Shown here: piece by piece, positions 6,372-11,751 of the stretch
How positions within the stretch are numbered: position 1 is the stretch's first letter
How the letters are laid out: every line of letters begins with the position of its first letter
Assembly (NCBI GenBank): GCA_947504115.1
Contig: CANNGH010000003.1
Location: forward strand, 248,001-312,000
Source of the DNA: an uncultured Sedimentitalea sp.
GTDB taxonomy: Bacteria > Pseudomonadota > Alphaproteobacteria > Rhodobacterales > Rhodobacteraceae
Length of the DNA: 64,000 bases
Direction of reading: 5' to 3'
Notes under the pieces: model-generated
Told to the model about the DNA's origin: nothing
What the model saw: the letters and a program-made list of their open reading frames with translations, nothing else
Databases searched by the model: none
Made by a program: the position numbers and the translations under genes

Positions 6372-6626
6372 TCACACTTCGGGGGCGCCGGGATCGGGGA
6401 CTGCCGGATTGACGTCATCACCCTTGTGATGGTCCCACGACGGATCGTTGCGCTTGATCCGGCGGGAAATGACATAGGCCACCGGATACATCAGAACGAC
6501 ACCGATGCCGACTGCGATCAGGATGGCCGTCCAACTGTAAAATCCCAGCACAAGAACCGTGATCAGCCCGATACCGGTCAGCACGGACCCCGTCATGAAC
6601 AACAAGACATAACTCAACCTGTCCAC
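6372..6626 (-). CDS. Small two-helix membrane protein of unknown function
   Basis: An 84-residue protein starting at a GTG (6626) preceded by GGAGAG. Two hydrophobic helices lie at about 7-29 and 33-52. A short basic-acidic cytosolic tail follows. No named domain is recognised. It has its own perfect EcfG promoter 33 bases upstream, so it is expected to be induced in the general stress response. It is divergent from the PLDc_N gene. Confidence 0.75.
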   Translation of the reverse strand: MDRLSYVLLFMTGSVLTGIGLITVLVLGFYSWTAILIAVGIGVVLMYPVAYVISRRIKRNDPSWDHHKGDDVNPAVPDPGAPEV

Positions 6627-6658: not shown

Positions 6659-6684
6659 AACGCCACAACCGGTGCAAGCGTTCC
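6659..6684 (-). promoter_or_regulatory. EcfG promoter, perfect consensus, for the 84-residue membrane protein
   Basis: On the minus strand: GGAAC, 17 bases, CGTT, an exact match. It is back to back with the plus-strand copy at 6694-6719. The two -10 regions are extended by a symmetric AACGCCAC/GTGGCGTT pair. Confidence 0.82.
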
Positions 6685-6693
6685 CGGCCACGC

Positions 6694-6719
6694 GGAACCG
6701 GATTGCCCATGGTGGCGTT
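6694..6719 (+). promoter_or_regulatory. EcfG promoter, perfect consensus, for the PLDc_N gene
   Basis: On the plus strand: GGAAC, 17 bases, CGTT, an exact match. The predicted transcript would start about 22 bases before the ATG at 6748, leaving room for the AAAGGAG ribosome site. Confidence 0.82.
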
Positions 6720-7848: not shown

Positions 7849-8019
7849 ATGCTTTACTGGGCCCTCATATTTCTGGTCATCGCGCTGATCGCTGGTGTCT
7901 TCGGCTTTGGCGGAATCGCAAGCGCCTCGGCCGGGATCGCACAGATCCTGTTCTTCATCTTCATCGTGCTGTTCGTCGTCGCGTTGATTGCCCGCGCCGT
8001 AAGGGGACGTTCGCCCTGA
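7849..8019 (+). CDS. DUF1328 (YtjA-like) small membrane protein
   Basis: A 56-residue protein that starts [16 protein letters not shown] and has two hydrophobic helices; this is the whole DUF1328 domain. AAAGGA precedes the ATG. Homologues are widespread and often stress induced; biochemical function is unknown. It is a single gene between an EcfG-type promoter and a hairpin terminator. Confidence 0.87.
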
Positions 8020-8039: not shown

Positions 8040-8074
8040 CAACAAGCGGGCGGCGGCGCATCGCCCGCTTGTTG
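8040..8074. terminator. Hairpin between convergent DUF1328 gene and phyR
   Basis: Perfect 13-bp inverted repeat (CAACAAGCGGGCG and its complement) with a nine-base loop. No clear T run follows on either strand, so it is called a terminator mainly from its strength and convergent position. Confidence 0.65.
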
Positions 8075-8084
8075 AGCGGACATA

Positions 8085-8897
8085 TCAGGCCTTGAGCGTT
8101 TCGGTCGATGCAAAGAACATCGCCTGACTGACGGCCGAGTGGACCTGTTGTTCGGAATACGGCTTGGAAATGAGAAAAGCCGGCTCGGGACGTTCTCCGG
8201 TCAAAAGACGTTCCGGGAATGCGGTGATGAAAATGACCGGAATGTTGCCAAGCGTTTCCAGCAGTTCCTGCACCGCCTCGATACCCGAGGAATTGTCGGC
8301 AAGCTGGATATCGGCGAGGATCAGATCGGGCCGTTCCTCGTTGCCCAGCTTCACGGCGCTTTCATGAGTGCGGGCGATGCCGACAACGCGGTGGCCGATC
8401 TCGGTGACCAGCGATTCCAGATCCATGGCGATGATCGCCTCGTCCTCGATGATCATCACGCGACCGGCGACGGAATCCGCCATCTCCTGGCGCGCCCGGT
8501 CCACCAGGAATTCGGCGTCTTCCGGAGCGATCTGCATTATCCTCGCCGTCTCCTGATACGAGAAATCCTCGATCGTGTGCAGCAGCAGCGCCTCTCGCGT
8601 GTTCTTGGTCAGCTTGGCCATATGTGCCTGCGCCCGACCCTCGATTCCCTCGGCCGCGACATCGGATGGCGCACCTGTCGTTGCCCAGATCCCGTGAAAG
8701 ATCTGGAACAGGGACACCTTTACGGATTGATCGCCCGAAACCGACGACGGATCCTCCAGGATCGCCTCCAGCGTGGCTGCGGCATAGGCGTCACCGGATG
8801 TCTGATTGCCTGTCAAAGCCCGACCGTAACGGCGCAAGAACGGCAGATGTTGACCCAGCGCTGTTGCCAGATCGCCGCCAGACTCGTCGTTATTCAT
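8085..8897 (-). CDS. phyR: General stress response regulator PhyR (sigma-like domain plus receiver)
   Basis: Phosphorylated PhyR binds the anti-sigma factor NepR through its sigma-like domain and so frees EcfG. From the ATG at 8897 the protein is 270 residues. An EcfG-like sigma2/sigma4 region covers about 12-142 (FSYQETARIMQI in region 4). The receiver covers about 146-265 with acidic pocket ED (151-152), phospho-acceptor D196 (LADIQL), T225 and K245 (SKPY). The start is set by GAGGAC 7 bases upstream; longer in-frame starts would sit on the promoter. It is divergent from nepR-ecfG. Confidence 0.95.
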   Translation of the reverse strand: MNNDESGGDLATALGQHLPFLRRYGRALTGNQTSGDAYAAATLEAILEDPSSVSGDQSVKVSLFQIFHGIWATTGAPSDVAAEGIEGRAQAHMAKLTKNTREALLLHTIEDFSYQETARIMQIAPEDAEFLVDRARQEMADSVAGRVMIIEDEAIIAMDLESLVTEIGHRVVGIARTHESAVKLGNEERPDLILADIQLADNSSGIEAVQELLETLGNIPVIFITAFPERLLTGERPEPAFLISKPYSEQQVHSAVSQAMFFASTETLKA

Positions 8898-8924: not shown

Positions 8925-8950
8925 GGAACCCAACGCCAACTTGCGTCGTT
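8925..8950 (+). promoter_or_regulatory. EcfG promoter, perfect consensus, for nepR-ecfG-kinase operon
   Basis: On the plus strand: GGAAC, 17 bases, CGTT, exact. It implies positive autoregulation of the sigma factor operon, a feature known for EcfG systems. The start of transcription would be near 8957, which leaves the ATGs at 8983 and 9007 as the realistic nepR starts. Confidence 0.85.
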
Positions 8951-8957
8951 GGGTTCC
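8932..8957 (-). promoter_or_regulatory. EcfG promoter, perfect consensus, for phyR
   Basis: On the minus strand: GGAAC, 17 bases, CGTT, exact. It almost completely overlaps the plus-strand promoter at 8925-8950. Each 11-bp arm (GGAACCCAACG and CGTTGGGTTCC) contains the -35 of one promoter and the -10 of the other. Confidence 0.85.
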
Positions 8958-9006
8958 AATGAAATACACGGCCACACATCAGATGGCGACAGTTGCGGCG
9001 AATGAG

Positions 9007-9171
9007 ATGGCAAGTACACAGAAAAAGACCAGTCAGATGCAGATCGATGAAAACCTGAAGAAAGTTTATCAAGAAGTGCTCGAGGATGAAATCCCCGATC
9101 GTTTCCGTGATCTTTTGGCGCAGTTGCGGGAGCAGGACCGAGAACGTCACGGGGATTCGAGCCAGAAATGA
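9007..9171 (+). CDS. nepR: Anti-sigma factor NepR
   Basis: A 54-residue protein that holds EcfG inactive until phosphorylated PhyR takes its place. The core NepR helix motif is QIDENLKKVYQEVLEDEIPD, followed by RFRDLLAQLREQ. The exact start is uncertain: in-frame ATGs at 8959, 8983 and 9007 all lack a good ribosome site. 8959 is unlikely because it falls at the predicted transcription start. The TGA overlaps the ecfG ATG by four bases, so the partner proteins are translationally coupled. Confidence 0.88.
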   Translation: MASTQKKTSQMQIDENLKKVYQEVLEDEIPDRFRDLLAQLREQDRERHGDSSQK

Positions 9172-9728
9172 ACCAGAAGAATCCGAAGGACGAGCTGGTC
9201 GAACATCTTCCGGCGTTACGGGCCTTTGCCATCAGCCTCACGCGCAACGGGTCAGTAGCGGATGACATGGTGCAGGACACCCTTGTCAAGGCGTGGACGA
9301 ACATCGATTCGAAATTCAAACCCGGCACCAATCTGCGCGCCTGGCTGTTCACCATCCTTCGCAACACCTATTATTCCAACCGGCGCAAGATGAAACGCGA
9401 AGTCGCCGATGTGGATGGTGTCTTTACCGAAGGTCTGGCCGTCAAGCCATCCCATGACGGCCATCTGCAGATGACCGATTTCCGCCGCGCCTTTGCCCAG
9501 CTTCCCGCCGAACAGCGCGAGGCACTGATATTGGTGGGCGCATCCGGCTTTTCCTACGAGGAAGCGGCCGATATGTGCAGTGTCGCCGTCGGCACGATCA
9601 AGAGCCGCGCCAACCGCGGTCGCGCCCGGCTGACACAGTTGCTGCATTTGCGCGAAGACGAGGCGATGGAATTGACGGACGAGGCGACAATGGCGGTCAT
9701 CGCGGCAAGCGGGTCTTCCTCTCTATGA
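9168..9728 (+). CDS. ecfG: General stress sigma factor EcfG (ECF15-type)
   Basis: A 186-residue ECF sigma factor. Region 2 lies at about 12-80 (motif DDMVQDTLVKAW), and region 4 at about 105-160, with the helix-turn-helix GFSYEEAADMCSVAVGTIKSR. A 20-residue tail follows region 4. Position between nepR and a histidine kinase, and opposite phyR, is diagnostic for EcfG. It should recognise the GGAAC/CGTT promoters found throughout 6.2-13.0 kb. ATGA overlaps link it to the genes on both sides. Confidence 0.95.
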   Translation: MNQKNPKDELVEHLPALRAFAISLTRNGSVADDMVQDTLVKAWTNIDSKFKPGTNLRAWLFTILRNTYYSNRRKMKREVADVDGVFTEGLAVKPSHDGHLQMTDFRRAFAQLPAEQREALILVGASGFSYEEAADMCSVAVGTIKSRANRGRARLTQLLHLREDEAMELTDEATMAVIAASGSSSL

Positions 9729-11452
9729 TTCCGGTCCGGGTTGTCCGGGCCTTCAGGTCGCTGGGCGCGCGGGTGGTTCTGTTCCTGTCCCTCGCCCTGT
9801 TACCGGTCGGGCTGATTGCGCTCTATCAGACACGCGAAGTCAAGATGCAGGCCGAGTTGCGCGTGGAACTCGCGCTTCAGGCCCTGACCGAGCGGGCGGC
9901 CCGGCGCGAACGCGCGATCCTGCAAAGCGCCTATGGGGCGCTGGCCCATGCGGGATCGACCATCGACCTGCTCCTGGACTCTCCCGAGCTTTGCACGCGG
10001 GTGATGCAGGGCTTTCTGAGTGACAATCCCGAATTCAGTTTCTTCGGCTTCATCCGGCCCGACATGACAACCGATTGCTCGTCGCTCGGCGAGCCGCACA
10101 CACTGGAAATGTCCGACGCCGCGGCAGAGTTCTGGGAGAAACCCCAACGCACGGTCAGCGCCAACATGAATGCACCGATATCGGGTCAGTCGGTCATCAT
10201 CATCACCGATCCCGTTCGGCGGAACGGCGAAGTGATCGGCGCGCTGACCCTGTCGATTCCGCACAACGTTCTGGATCCACCCAACCGCATGCTGGAAGGC
10301 AACGATCCGGTCGAACTGATTACCTTCAATGAACAGGGTATCGTCCTGACGGCCAGCAGCGGACTGGTGGATGTGGCGGACAAGTTGCCGCGCAACCGCG
10401 CTTTGATCAATTTCATCGGGCAAAGCGCATTTTCCTTCACCGGCCTGAATCGAAAGGGCGAACGCCGGTCTTTTGCCGTGGTGCCGATCCTGCCCGGATC
10501 GGTCTATGCGATGGGAGCCTACAAGCGATCGGCCCCGGCGATGGGAGCCGCCGGAGTGGCCTTTCCCGCATGGCTGTTCCCGATCCTGATGTGGCTGGTG
10601 TCGCTGCTTGTCGCCTATATCGCCATGGAGCGCTTGGTGATCCGCTATATCCGCCGCCTGCAACGCCAGATGCGCGACTTCTCGTCCACGCGGCGGATTC
10701 CCGTGCCTCTCGAAGCACCGGAAAAACCGCAAGAGCTGCGCGATATCGACGCGGCATTCCTGACCATGACCGAGACCTTGCTGCGCGACGAGGCCGAGAT
10801 GGAAAACGCGATGCACGAAAAGATCGTGCTGCTGAAAGAGGTGCATCACCGCGTCAAGAACAACCTTCAACTGATCTCGTCGATCATGAACATGAAGATG
10901 CGCAAGACGTCGAATCCCGAAACGATTCACATCCTGCGGCGGCTTCAGCAGCGCGTGATGGGCCTCGCGCGTATTCATCAGGGTCTTTACCAGACGCAGA
11001 ATTTCGGCTCGCTCGACATCACGGACCTGGTCAACGCGATCCTGGACGAGATGGAGCGGATGGGAGACGGCGACATGGCTGTGCGCATCATCCGCGAGAT
11101 CGAACCGACCGTGCTCTACCCCGAGCAGGCGGTTCCGCTGTCGCTGCTGCTGTCCGAAGCGACGACCAACGCCATGAAATTCGCGTCGGCCCCCGAGGGG
11201 GAAACGCCGTGGATCAAGGTCTCGATTTATGCCGACGAGCCCGATCACGCCTGTCTGGTGGTCACCAATTCCACGACAGGCGATCCCAATGACGGGCTGG
11301 ACCCCGAAAGCACCGGTCTGGGCAGGCAGTTGATTGCCGCCTTCAATTCCCAGCTCGAAGGCGATCTTGACGTGACCGAGGAAGACGGGACCTACAAGGT
11401 CGCGATCCGCTTCAAGGTCGCCCACTTCTCGCCCGAACCGCGGGATTACTGA
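9725..11452 (+). CDS. HWE/HisKA_2 family sensor histidine kinase, probable PhyR kinase
   Basis: A 575-residue membrane kinase. Transmembrane helix 1 is at about 17-35, an extracytoplasmic sensing region at about 36-275 (cache-like, not assigned with certainty), and helix 2 at about 276-303. A HisKA_2 dimerisation domain with EVHHRVKNNLQLI follows, phospho-acceptor probably H375, then a HATPase_c domain (SEATTNAMKFA for the N box). It starts at an ATG at 9725 that overlaps the ecfG stop. The EVHHRVKNN motif and operon position match PhyK-type kinases that phosphorylate PhyR; this pairing is inferred. Confidence 0.9.
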   Translation: MIPVRVVRAFRSLGARVVLFLSLALLPVGLIALYQTREVKMQAELRVELALQALTERAARRERAILQSAYGALAHAGSTIDLLLDSPELCTRVMQGFLSDNPEFSFFGFIRPDMTTDCSSLGEPHTLEMSDAAAEFWEKPQRTVSANMNAPISGQSVIIITDPVRRNGEVIGALTLSIPHNVLDPPNRMLEGNDPVELITFNEQGIVLTASSGLVDVADKLPRNRALINFIGQSAFSFTGLNRKGERRSFAVVPILPGSVYAMGAYKRSAPAMGAAGVAFPAWLFPILMWLVSLLVAYIAMERLVIRYIRRLQRQMRDFSSTRRIPVPLEAPEKPQELRDIDAAFLTMTETLLRDEAEMENAMHEKIVLLKEVHHRVKNNLQLISSIMNMKMRKTSNPETIHILRRLQQRVMGLARIHQGLYQTQNFGSLDITDLVNAILDEMERMGDGDMAVRIIREIEPTVLYPEQAVPLSLLLSEATTNAMKFASAPEGETPWIKVSIYADEPDHACLVVTNSTTGDPNDGLDPESTGLGRQLIAAFNSQLEGDLDVTEEDGTYKVAIRFKVAHFSPEPRDY

Positions 11453-11498: not shown

Positions 11499-11523
11499 GG
11501 AACCCGCGCGCAGATCGGGCGTT
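11499..11523 (+). promoter_or_regulatory. EcfG promoter for csbD-like gene and general stress protein 26 gene
   Basis: On the plus strand: GGAAC, 16 bases, CGTT. Both elements are exact and the spacing is the shorter allowed one. The ATG at 11560 is 36 bases downstream. Confidence 0.8.
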
Positions 11524-11559: not shown

Positions 11560-11751
11560 ATGAATTGGGACCAGATCAAAGGCAAATGGAACCAGATGAA
11601 GGGCGACGCCAAGATCAAATGGGGCGATCTCACCGACGACGATCTGGACAAGATCGACGGCAACCGTGACAAGCTGGTGGGCACCATCCAGGAGCGTTAC
11701 GGCAAGACCAAGGAAGAAGCCGAACGCGAAGTCGACGACTGGGCCCGCTGA
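11560..11751 (+). CDS. CsbD family stress protein
   Basis: A 63-residue, very hydrophilic, charged protein. It starts MNWDQIKGKWNQMKG and ends YGKTKEEAEREVDDW, which is the complete CsbD domain. CsbD was defined as a sigma-B-dependent protein in Bacillus; homologues are among the strongest general stress genes in alphaproteobacteria. Biochemical role is unknown. GAAAGGA precedes the ATG. It is first gene of a two-gene unit three bases from the next start. Confidence 0.92.
   Translation: MNWDQIKGKWNQMKGDAKIKWGDLTDDDLDKIDGNRDKLVGTIQERYGKTKEEAEREVDDWAR

Follow-up and report, generated by a model that had tools for sequence, protein, structure and literature searches.

Background

The closest described relatives of the locus studied here are the published phyR and nepR-ecfG units, which consist of the same genes in the same divergent order with EcfG-type promoters on both sides (PMC8103513, PMC3616915). 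A review gives both units promoters of the general stress response (GSR), and the control of both phyR and nepR-ecfG by EcfG is already in print (PMC8103513); in S. meliloti, a transcription start has been mapped below an RpoE2 promoter for each of rsiA1 and rsiB1 (PMC3616915). The EcfG consensus, GGAAC and CGTT separated by 16-17 bp, is also found in PMC12148442 and PMC7083833. An interleaved phyR/nepR site is not described in the available text of PMC8103513 and PMC3616915, and in the open-access literature searched we found no title or abstract treating the phyR and nepR-ecfG promoters as one interleaved site.

Within the family Rhodobacteraceae, the phyR locus of R. sphaeroides (RSP_1274) has the same gene order, and differential RNA-seq placed a promoter upstream of RSP_1273 (PMC5830050). 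According to the available text of that paper, which does not mention promoter overlap at this locus, phyR and ecfG mRNA levels are raised by different stresses: the mRNA of RSP_1272 (ecfG) rose under membrane stress in a PhyR-dependent manner and under no other stress, whereas phyR showed no marked change under membrane stress and rose 2-3 fold under singlet oxygen, superoxide and diamide.

A different kind of precedent is provided by the bidirectional promoters of E. coli (Warman et al. 2026, PMC12825309), whose exclusion logic, as far as the available text goes, resembles that of the phyR/nepR site. There, the two transcription starts flank or fall within a shared -10, their usual distance being 18 bp (10 and 23 bp also occur), and the two directions exclude each other at high activity with little competition at basal activity.

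The phyR/nepR site and its surroundings

The window, meaning the whole stretch of 64,000 nucleotides that was analysed, comes from an uncultured Sedimentitalea sp. and carries at 8925-8957 the sequence GGAACCCAACG CCAACTTGCGT CGTTGGGTTCC. A preliminary description had seen here a perfect inverted repeat which, read on each strand, gives an exact GGAAC-N17-CGTT promoter, and both observations are borne out: arms of 11 bp enclose an 11-bp middle, and a full match to the EcfG (ECF15) consensus is present in each direction (Table 1). The same description had the -35 of one strand overlapping the -10 of the other, which is incorrect. From left to right the boxes follow each other as plus -35, minus -10, plus -10 and minus -35, with 2 bp separating 8925-8929 from 8932-8935, and again 8947-8950 from 8953-8957; each -35 is thus set off from the -10 of the other strand, and the promoters interleave without overlap of their core boxes. 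Beyond the two cores, the palindrome requires just two extra free base pairs (CC/GG) to match.

Table 1. Features of the phyR/nepR-ecfG locus (window coordinates)
Feature	Position	Strand	Details
Interleaved dual promoter, perfect inverted repeat, 33 bp	8925..8957	both	Arms 8925-8935 and 8947-8957
EcfG-type promoter, towards nepR-ecfG-kinase	8925..8950	+	-35 GGAAC 8925-8929, N17, -10 CGTT 8947-8950
EcfG-type promoter, towards phyR	8932..8957	-	-35 GGAAC 8957-8953, N17, -10 CGTT 8935-8932
phyR, response regulator with sigma-like domain, anti-anti-sigma factor	8085..8897	-	Pfam, NCBIfam
nepR, anti-sigma factor	9007..9171	+	NepR domain found by Pfam in 8959-9171
ecfG, ECF sigma factor	9168..9728	+	Pfam, NCBIfam
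HWE/HisKA_2 histidine kinase	9725..11452	+	PhyK-like, under the PhyK cut-off (184 of 750 bits)

The identification of the divergent flanking genes as phyR on one side and nepR-ecfG on the other agrees with Pfam, and NCBIfam names PhyR above its cut-off. Together with the histidine kinase nearby, this is the arrangement of the alphaproteobacterial GSR core locus, and the two motifs thus lie 5' of general-stress-response genes. By consensus, position and conservation (see below), both look like EcfG promoters. A leaderless nepR beginning at the ATG at 8959 was considered and rejected: in the same-genus genome G669 the equivalent frame stops at its third codon, and the position matching 9007 is where the nepR frame opens, so that 9007 is favoured and is, from this comparison, most likely the start.

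If the 7-bp distance between -10 and start found in E. coli (PMC12825309) holds here, rightward transcription would be expected to begin near 8957 and leftward transcription near 8925, each predicted start falling on the outer end of the opposite promoter's -35 and the two lying about 32 bp apart. The site differs from the E. coli bidirectional promoters, which share a -10, in having two separate -10s (8932-8935 and 8947-8950), shared spacers and more widely spaced predicted starts. It is also unlike them in its sigma factor, an ECF protein that regulates its own synthesis and whose gene belongs to one of the two units. It is best called an interleaved antiparallel ECF promoter pair.

Three other features of the window were recorded. 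A CsbD-like gene at 11560 is preceded by an EcfG-like motif (N16) at 11499-11523, and together with phyR-ecfG it looks like a stress-regulon island. The sole other perfect 11/11/11 inverted repeat of the window (8041-8073) is flanked by a small gene on the plus strand, whose end is at 8019, and by the 3' end of phyR; it looks like a two-way terminator. Finally, a second divergent pair of EcfG-like motifs (6659-6719; minus strand 6684-6659, plus strand 6694-6719) has its -35s back to back with 9 bp between them, which is the layout of phyR/nepR pairs in other families. It is flanked by an 84-aa ORF (6372-6626, minus strand), for which there is no NCBIfam match, and by a PLDc_N gene on the plus strand with an ATG at about 6748.

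A single match to the strict dual pattern is present in the window, and 60 Markov-generated sequences of 64 kb gave none. Single motifs (N16-18) are over-represented in the window (8 found, 1.51 expected) and show no excess over the whole genome, where 123 were found against 127 with a reversed control pattern. A lone motif match therefore proves little, and it is position and conservation that carry the weight. The dual pattern used in the class-wide search (see below) is found at one place in the window's own genome. The same genome contains, at G000:C4:236018-236044, a 27-bp site in which both strands read GGAAC-N16-CGTT and the register is tighter.

Conservation among Rhodobacteraceae

Two sets of relatives were compared. 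The near set comprises 86 phyR loci, namely the best 80 of 478 confirmed relatives, four loci including the window copy, and two from the same genus (the additions being L122-L125, L194 and L195). Because this set is biased to close kin, an even sample of 149 genomes was drawn from the family, 66 of which yielded PhyR at an E value of 1e-40 or better; among the 70 hits listed, the upstream region was examined for 66, four fragments without a 5' end being left out. The two sets have three loci in common.

A GGAAC...GTTCC pair spanning 31-33 bp lies upstream of phyR in 82 of the 86 near-set loci (the exceptions being L068, L089, L093 and L098). In the even sample, an interleaved pair of 30-33 bp end to end is present in 59/66 loci, or 59/63 when only loci with a divergent ecfG match are counted. 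As exact GGAAC and GTTCC were required in the near-set, 128-site (see below) and tree analyses, the exactness of the -35s is there by construction, and the evidence is the fraction of loci having them. The expectation that relatives would conserve both arms is thus supported for the -35s, both of which are kept in those 59 even-sample loci, but not for the symmetry of the arms, which drifts. Loss of one arm in relatives, which, if regulation were unchanged, had been named as an outcome that would speak against the proposal, is seen in a minority of loci, the majority keeping both.

Named records of D. shibae, K. vulgare and Gemmobacter fulvus have the interleaved layout. In the same-genus genomes G669 and G774 both arms are intact and the middles altered; the middle of G774 is one base shorter, with the consequence that both spacers become 16 at once. 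G435 (L230, L266) is probably R. sphaeroides, judging by a 68-aa NepR-like protein and a downstream Crp/Fnr-type gene, and also has the interleaved pair, differing in its 16-bp spacers (GGAAC-N16-CGTT on both strands in L230).

Seven even-sample loci lack the interleaved pair: L219, L258, G524 (G524:C32), L241, L246, L247 and L250. No divergent ecfG match was found in the stretch examined for L219 and L258, nor for G524, where a divergent nepR is present and no -35 pair was seen, neither -35 lying in the intergenic region; for L224-L258 and L267 the upstream stretch examined was about 900 bp. Neither -35 was found in the phyR/nepR intergenic region of Roseobacter litoralis, and a 28-bp GGAAC...GTTCC inside its annotated nepR was taken as chance. 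Searched across 394 family genomes, a tighter pattern was found in 151 and its reversed control in 21 (control counted by hand); a loose pattern (304/394) was dropped, its control columns being similar in size.

What is kept and what drifts

The two sets together give 128 distinct sites, for which, as in the near-set tallies, spacers and -10s are the best of four spacings. The gap from each -35 to the opposite -10 is 1-3 bp in 128/128. This bears on the strongest alternative, which is that two independent EcfG promoters are packed in a short intergenic region, their overlap being historical and without regulatory use, with occupancy normally too low for polymerases to collide. The proximity of phyR and nepR throughout the family fits this account, while a register held to 1-3 bp, though other families often have longer intergenic regions, does not sit easily with it. 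That register is weak evidence, however, since descent from one ancestor could explain it too, and we regard independent promoters as a serious contender at slightly under even odds.

A second alternative is that only the nepR-ecfG direction works as an EcfG promoter, phyR being mostly driven from elsewhere and its motif partly decayed or accessory. The one-sided losses of the even sample point this way, as they hit the phyR -35: an EcfG-like promoter is kept on the nepR side alone in L241, L247 and L250, and the phyR -35 of L246 carries one mismatch (all judged by eye). So does R. sphaeroides, with its flat phyR mRNA under conditions where ecfG mRNA rose (PMC5830050). Yet the phyR side has the better preserved -10, reading CGTT in 97/128 distinct sites against 75/128 on the nepR side (with both -10s strict in 56 sites, just that of phyR in 41, just that of nepR in 19 and neither in 12). 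Moreover, the orphan phyR of L219 (G445) still retains its own GGAAC-N17-CGTT, and in Rhizobium etli the expression of phyR is EcfG1-dependent (PMC3892343, available text). A nepR-only promoter is accordingly unlikely in our judgement. The unequal induction in R. sphaeroides is nevertheless at odds with a simple, evenly balanced pair; identical cores giving different output could be explained by flank-biased competition, by an additional basal promoter of phyR or by weakness of the leftward promoter.

Two further signals were looked for and are not claimed. For a trade-off between the two -10s, Fisher's test in the near set gave p 0.08, uncorrected for kinship. For coordinated substitution of the free bases next to the -35s, 14/41 were equal against 7.4 in the near set and 11/34 against 9.0 in the even set, and on the tree there were no fewer changes than in shuffles (26 against 27.8).

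Between the boxes, conservation falls away. Pairwise identity of the middle is near random (0.32 for sites of length 32 and 0.30 for length 33), that of the -10 positions being 0.69 and 0.75, respectively, and at least 52 changes of the central base are needed on a 98-locus PhyR tree. That the inverted repeat instead binds a dimeric regulator, or forms a hairpin or terminator, with the promoter matches secondary, is very improbable: the perfect 11-bp arms and the good folding of the single-stranded DNA (-11.5 kcal/mol, z -3.88) would suit it, but perfect arms of at least 11 bp remain in only 8/82 near-set and 9/59 even-sample sites while the promoter letters are kept, no Rfam family matches at the repeat, and, with starts expected at its outer ends, the repeat would hardly be transcribed as a hairpin. 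Since the promoter letters are kept and the dyad symmetry is not, the palindrome appears to be a by-product of antiparallel promoters; judged from these alignments, the conserved feature is the two interleaved promoters and not the dyad symmetry.

Layouts outside the family

Outside the family, promoter pairs were assigned with an exact GGAAC, a spacer of 15-18, a -10 ending in TT and a distance of at most 450 bp from phyR, criteria that weaker promoters escape; eight partial, paralogous or low-scoring rows were left out of the list. For the 37 loci with a divergent ecfG match, the most frequent pair, in 11 loci from seven families, has back-to-back -35s separated by 6-9 bp. Three loci of one family (L155, L175 and L177) have an interleaved 32-bp pair, three of one family (L162, L165 and L166) a nested 27-bp pair, and four have pairs further apart; 16/37 showed no promoter pair under these criteria. 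In the nested 27-bp pairs, the GGTT of the -10 merges into the -35 of the other strand. Among single records, S. meliloti (L260) differs from the window in having its two -35s back to back, not interleaved, with 5 bp between; Methylobacterium bullatum likewise has them back to back, 9 bp apart, and Sphingomonas parapaucimobilis has the motif on one strand only.

A class-wide search for the dual pattern says little, with 11/385 genomes against 5/385 for the control (hand count). Matches to phyR, nepR and ecfG together were found at only two of the 11 loci, those of G000 and G154, and the locus of G205 gave a weak receiver-domain match only. The latter is a strict interleaved site in another family (L191 about 2087-2118; G205:C17:42086-42117); it directly precedes a gene with a receiver domain and is not part of a phyR-nepR locus.

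A probable single site for two directions of transcription

That EcfG promoters face in opposite directions at this site, as first proposed, is well supported by the conservation of both across the family. Our preferred reading, to which we give a probability of about 0.7, is that the palindrome consists of two EcfG (ECF15) promoters in antiparallel register and would act as a fixed-odds divider by mutual exclusion. Facing right, EcfG-RNA polymerase would drive nepR-ecfG-kinase; facing left, the same holoenzyme would drive phyR. Polymerase bound to either promoter would occlude the -35 and the -10 of the other, and mutual exclusion of phyR and nepR-ecfG initiation would therefore be expected, from the geometry and by analogy with E. 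coli (PMC12825309). Several results count against this reading: the slight competition at basal activity in E. coli (PMC12825309), the unequal induction in R. sphaeroides (PMC5830050), the four even-sample loci whose phyR -35 is lost or weakened, the absence of both -35s from G524 and R. litoralis, and the 16/37 loci from other families in which no pair was seen under the criteria used.

Under such exclusion, the ratio of phyR to nepR-ecfG initiation would equal the ratio of the entry rates whatever the level of active EcfG, and would remain constant even near saturation because both initiations would start from the same empty DNA. In an arithmetic example with made-up rates, the ratio of two independent promoters with a twofold difference drifts from 2.0 to 1.0 on saturation, and that of a shared site stays constant across EcfG levels. 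During positive feedback the site could thereby divide initiation at fixed odds, with the anti-anti-sigma gene on one side and the anti-sigma and sigma genes on the other, and the layout may, as the preliminary description suggested, tune the ratio of PhyR to NepR.

It is a further and more doubtful step to suppose that the interleaved register was selected as a fixed-odds divider, a constant ratio of PhyR to NepR/EcfG stabilising the positive-feedback partner switch, with comparable coupling achieved elsewhere by other layouts (back-to-back, nested 27-bp or interleaved 32-bp). We put this forward tentatively, as possible though not probable.

The natural variants found in the family (strict on both sides, strict on one side, phyR side lost) are ready-made test constructs. 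If the competition is real, the stoichiometry of sigma factor, anti-sigma factor and anti-anti-sigma factor would be encoded in about 33 bp of DNA and would be retunable by single bases.
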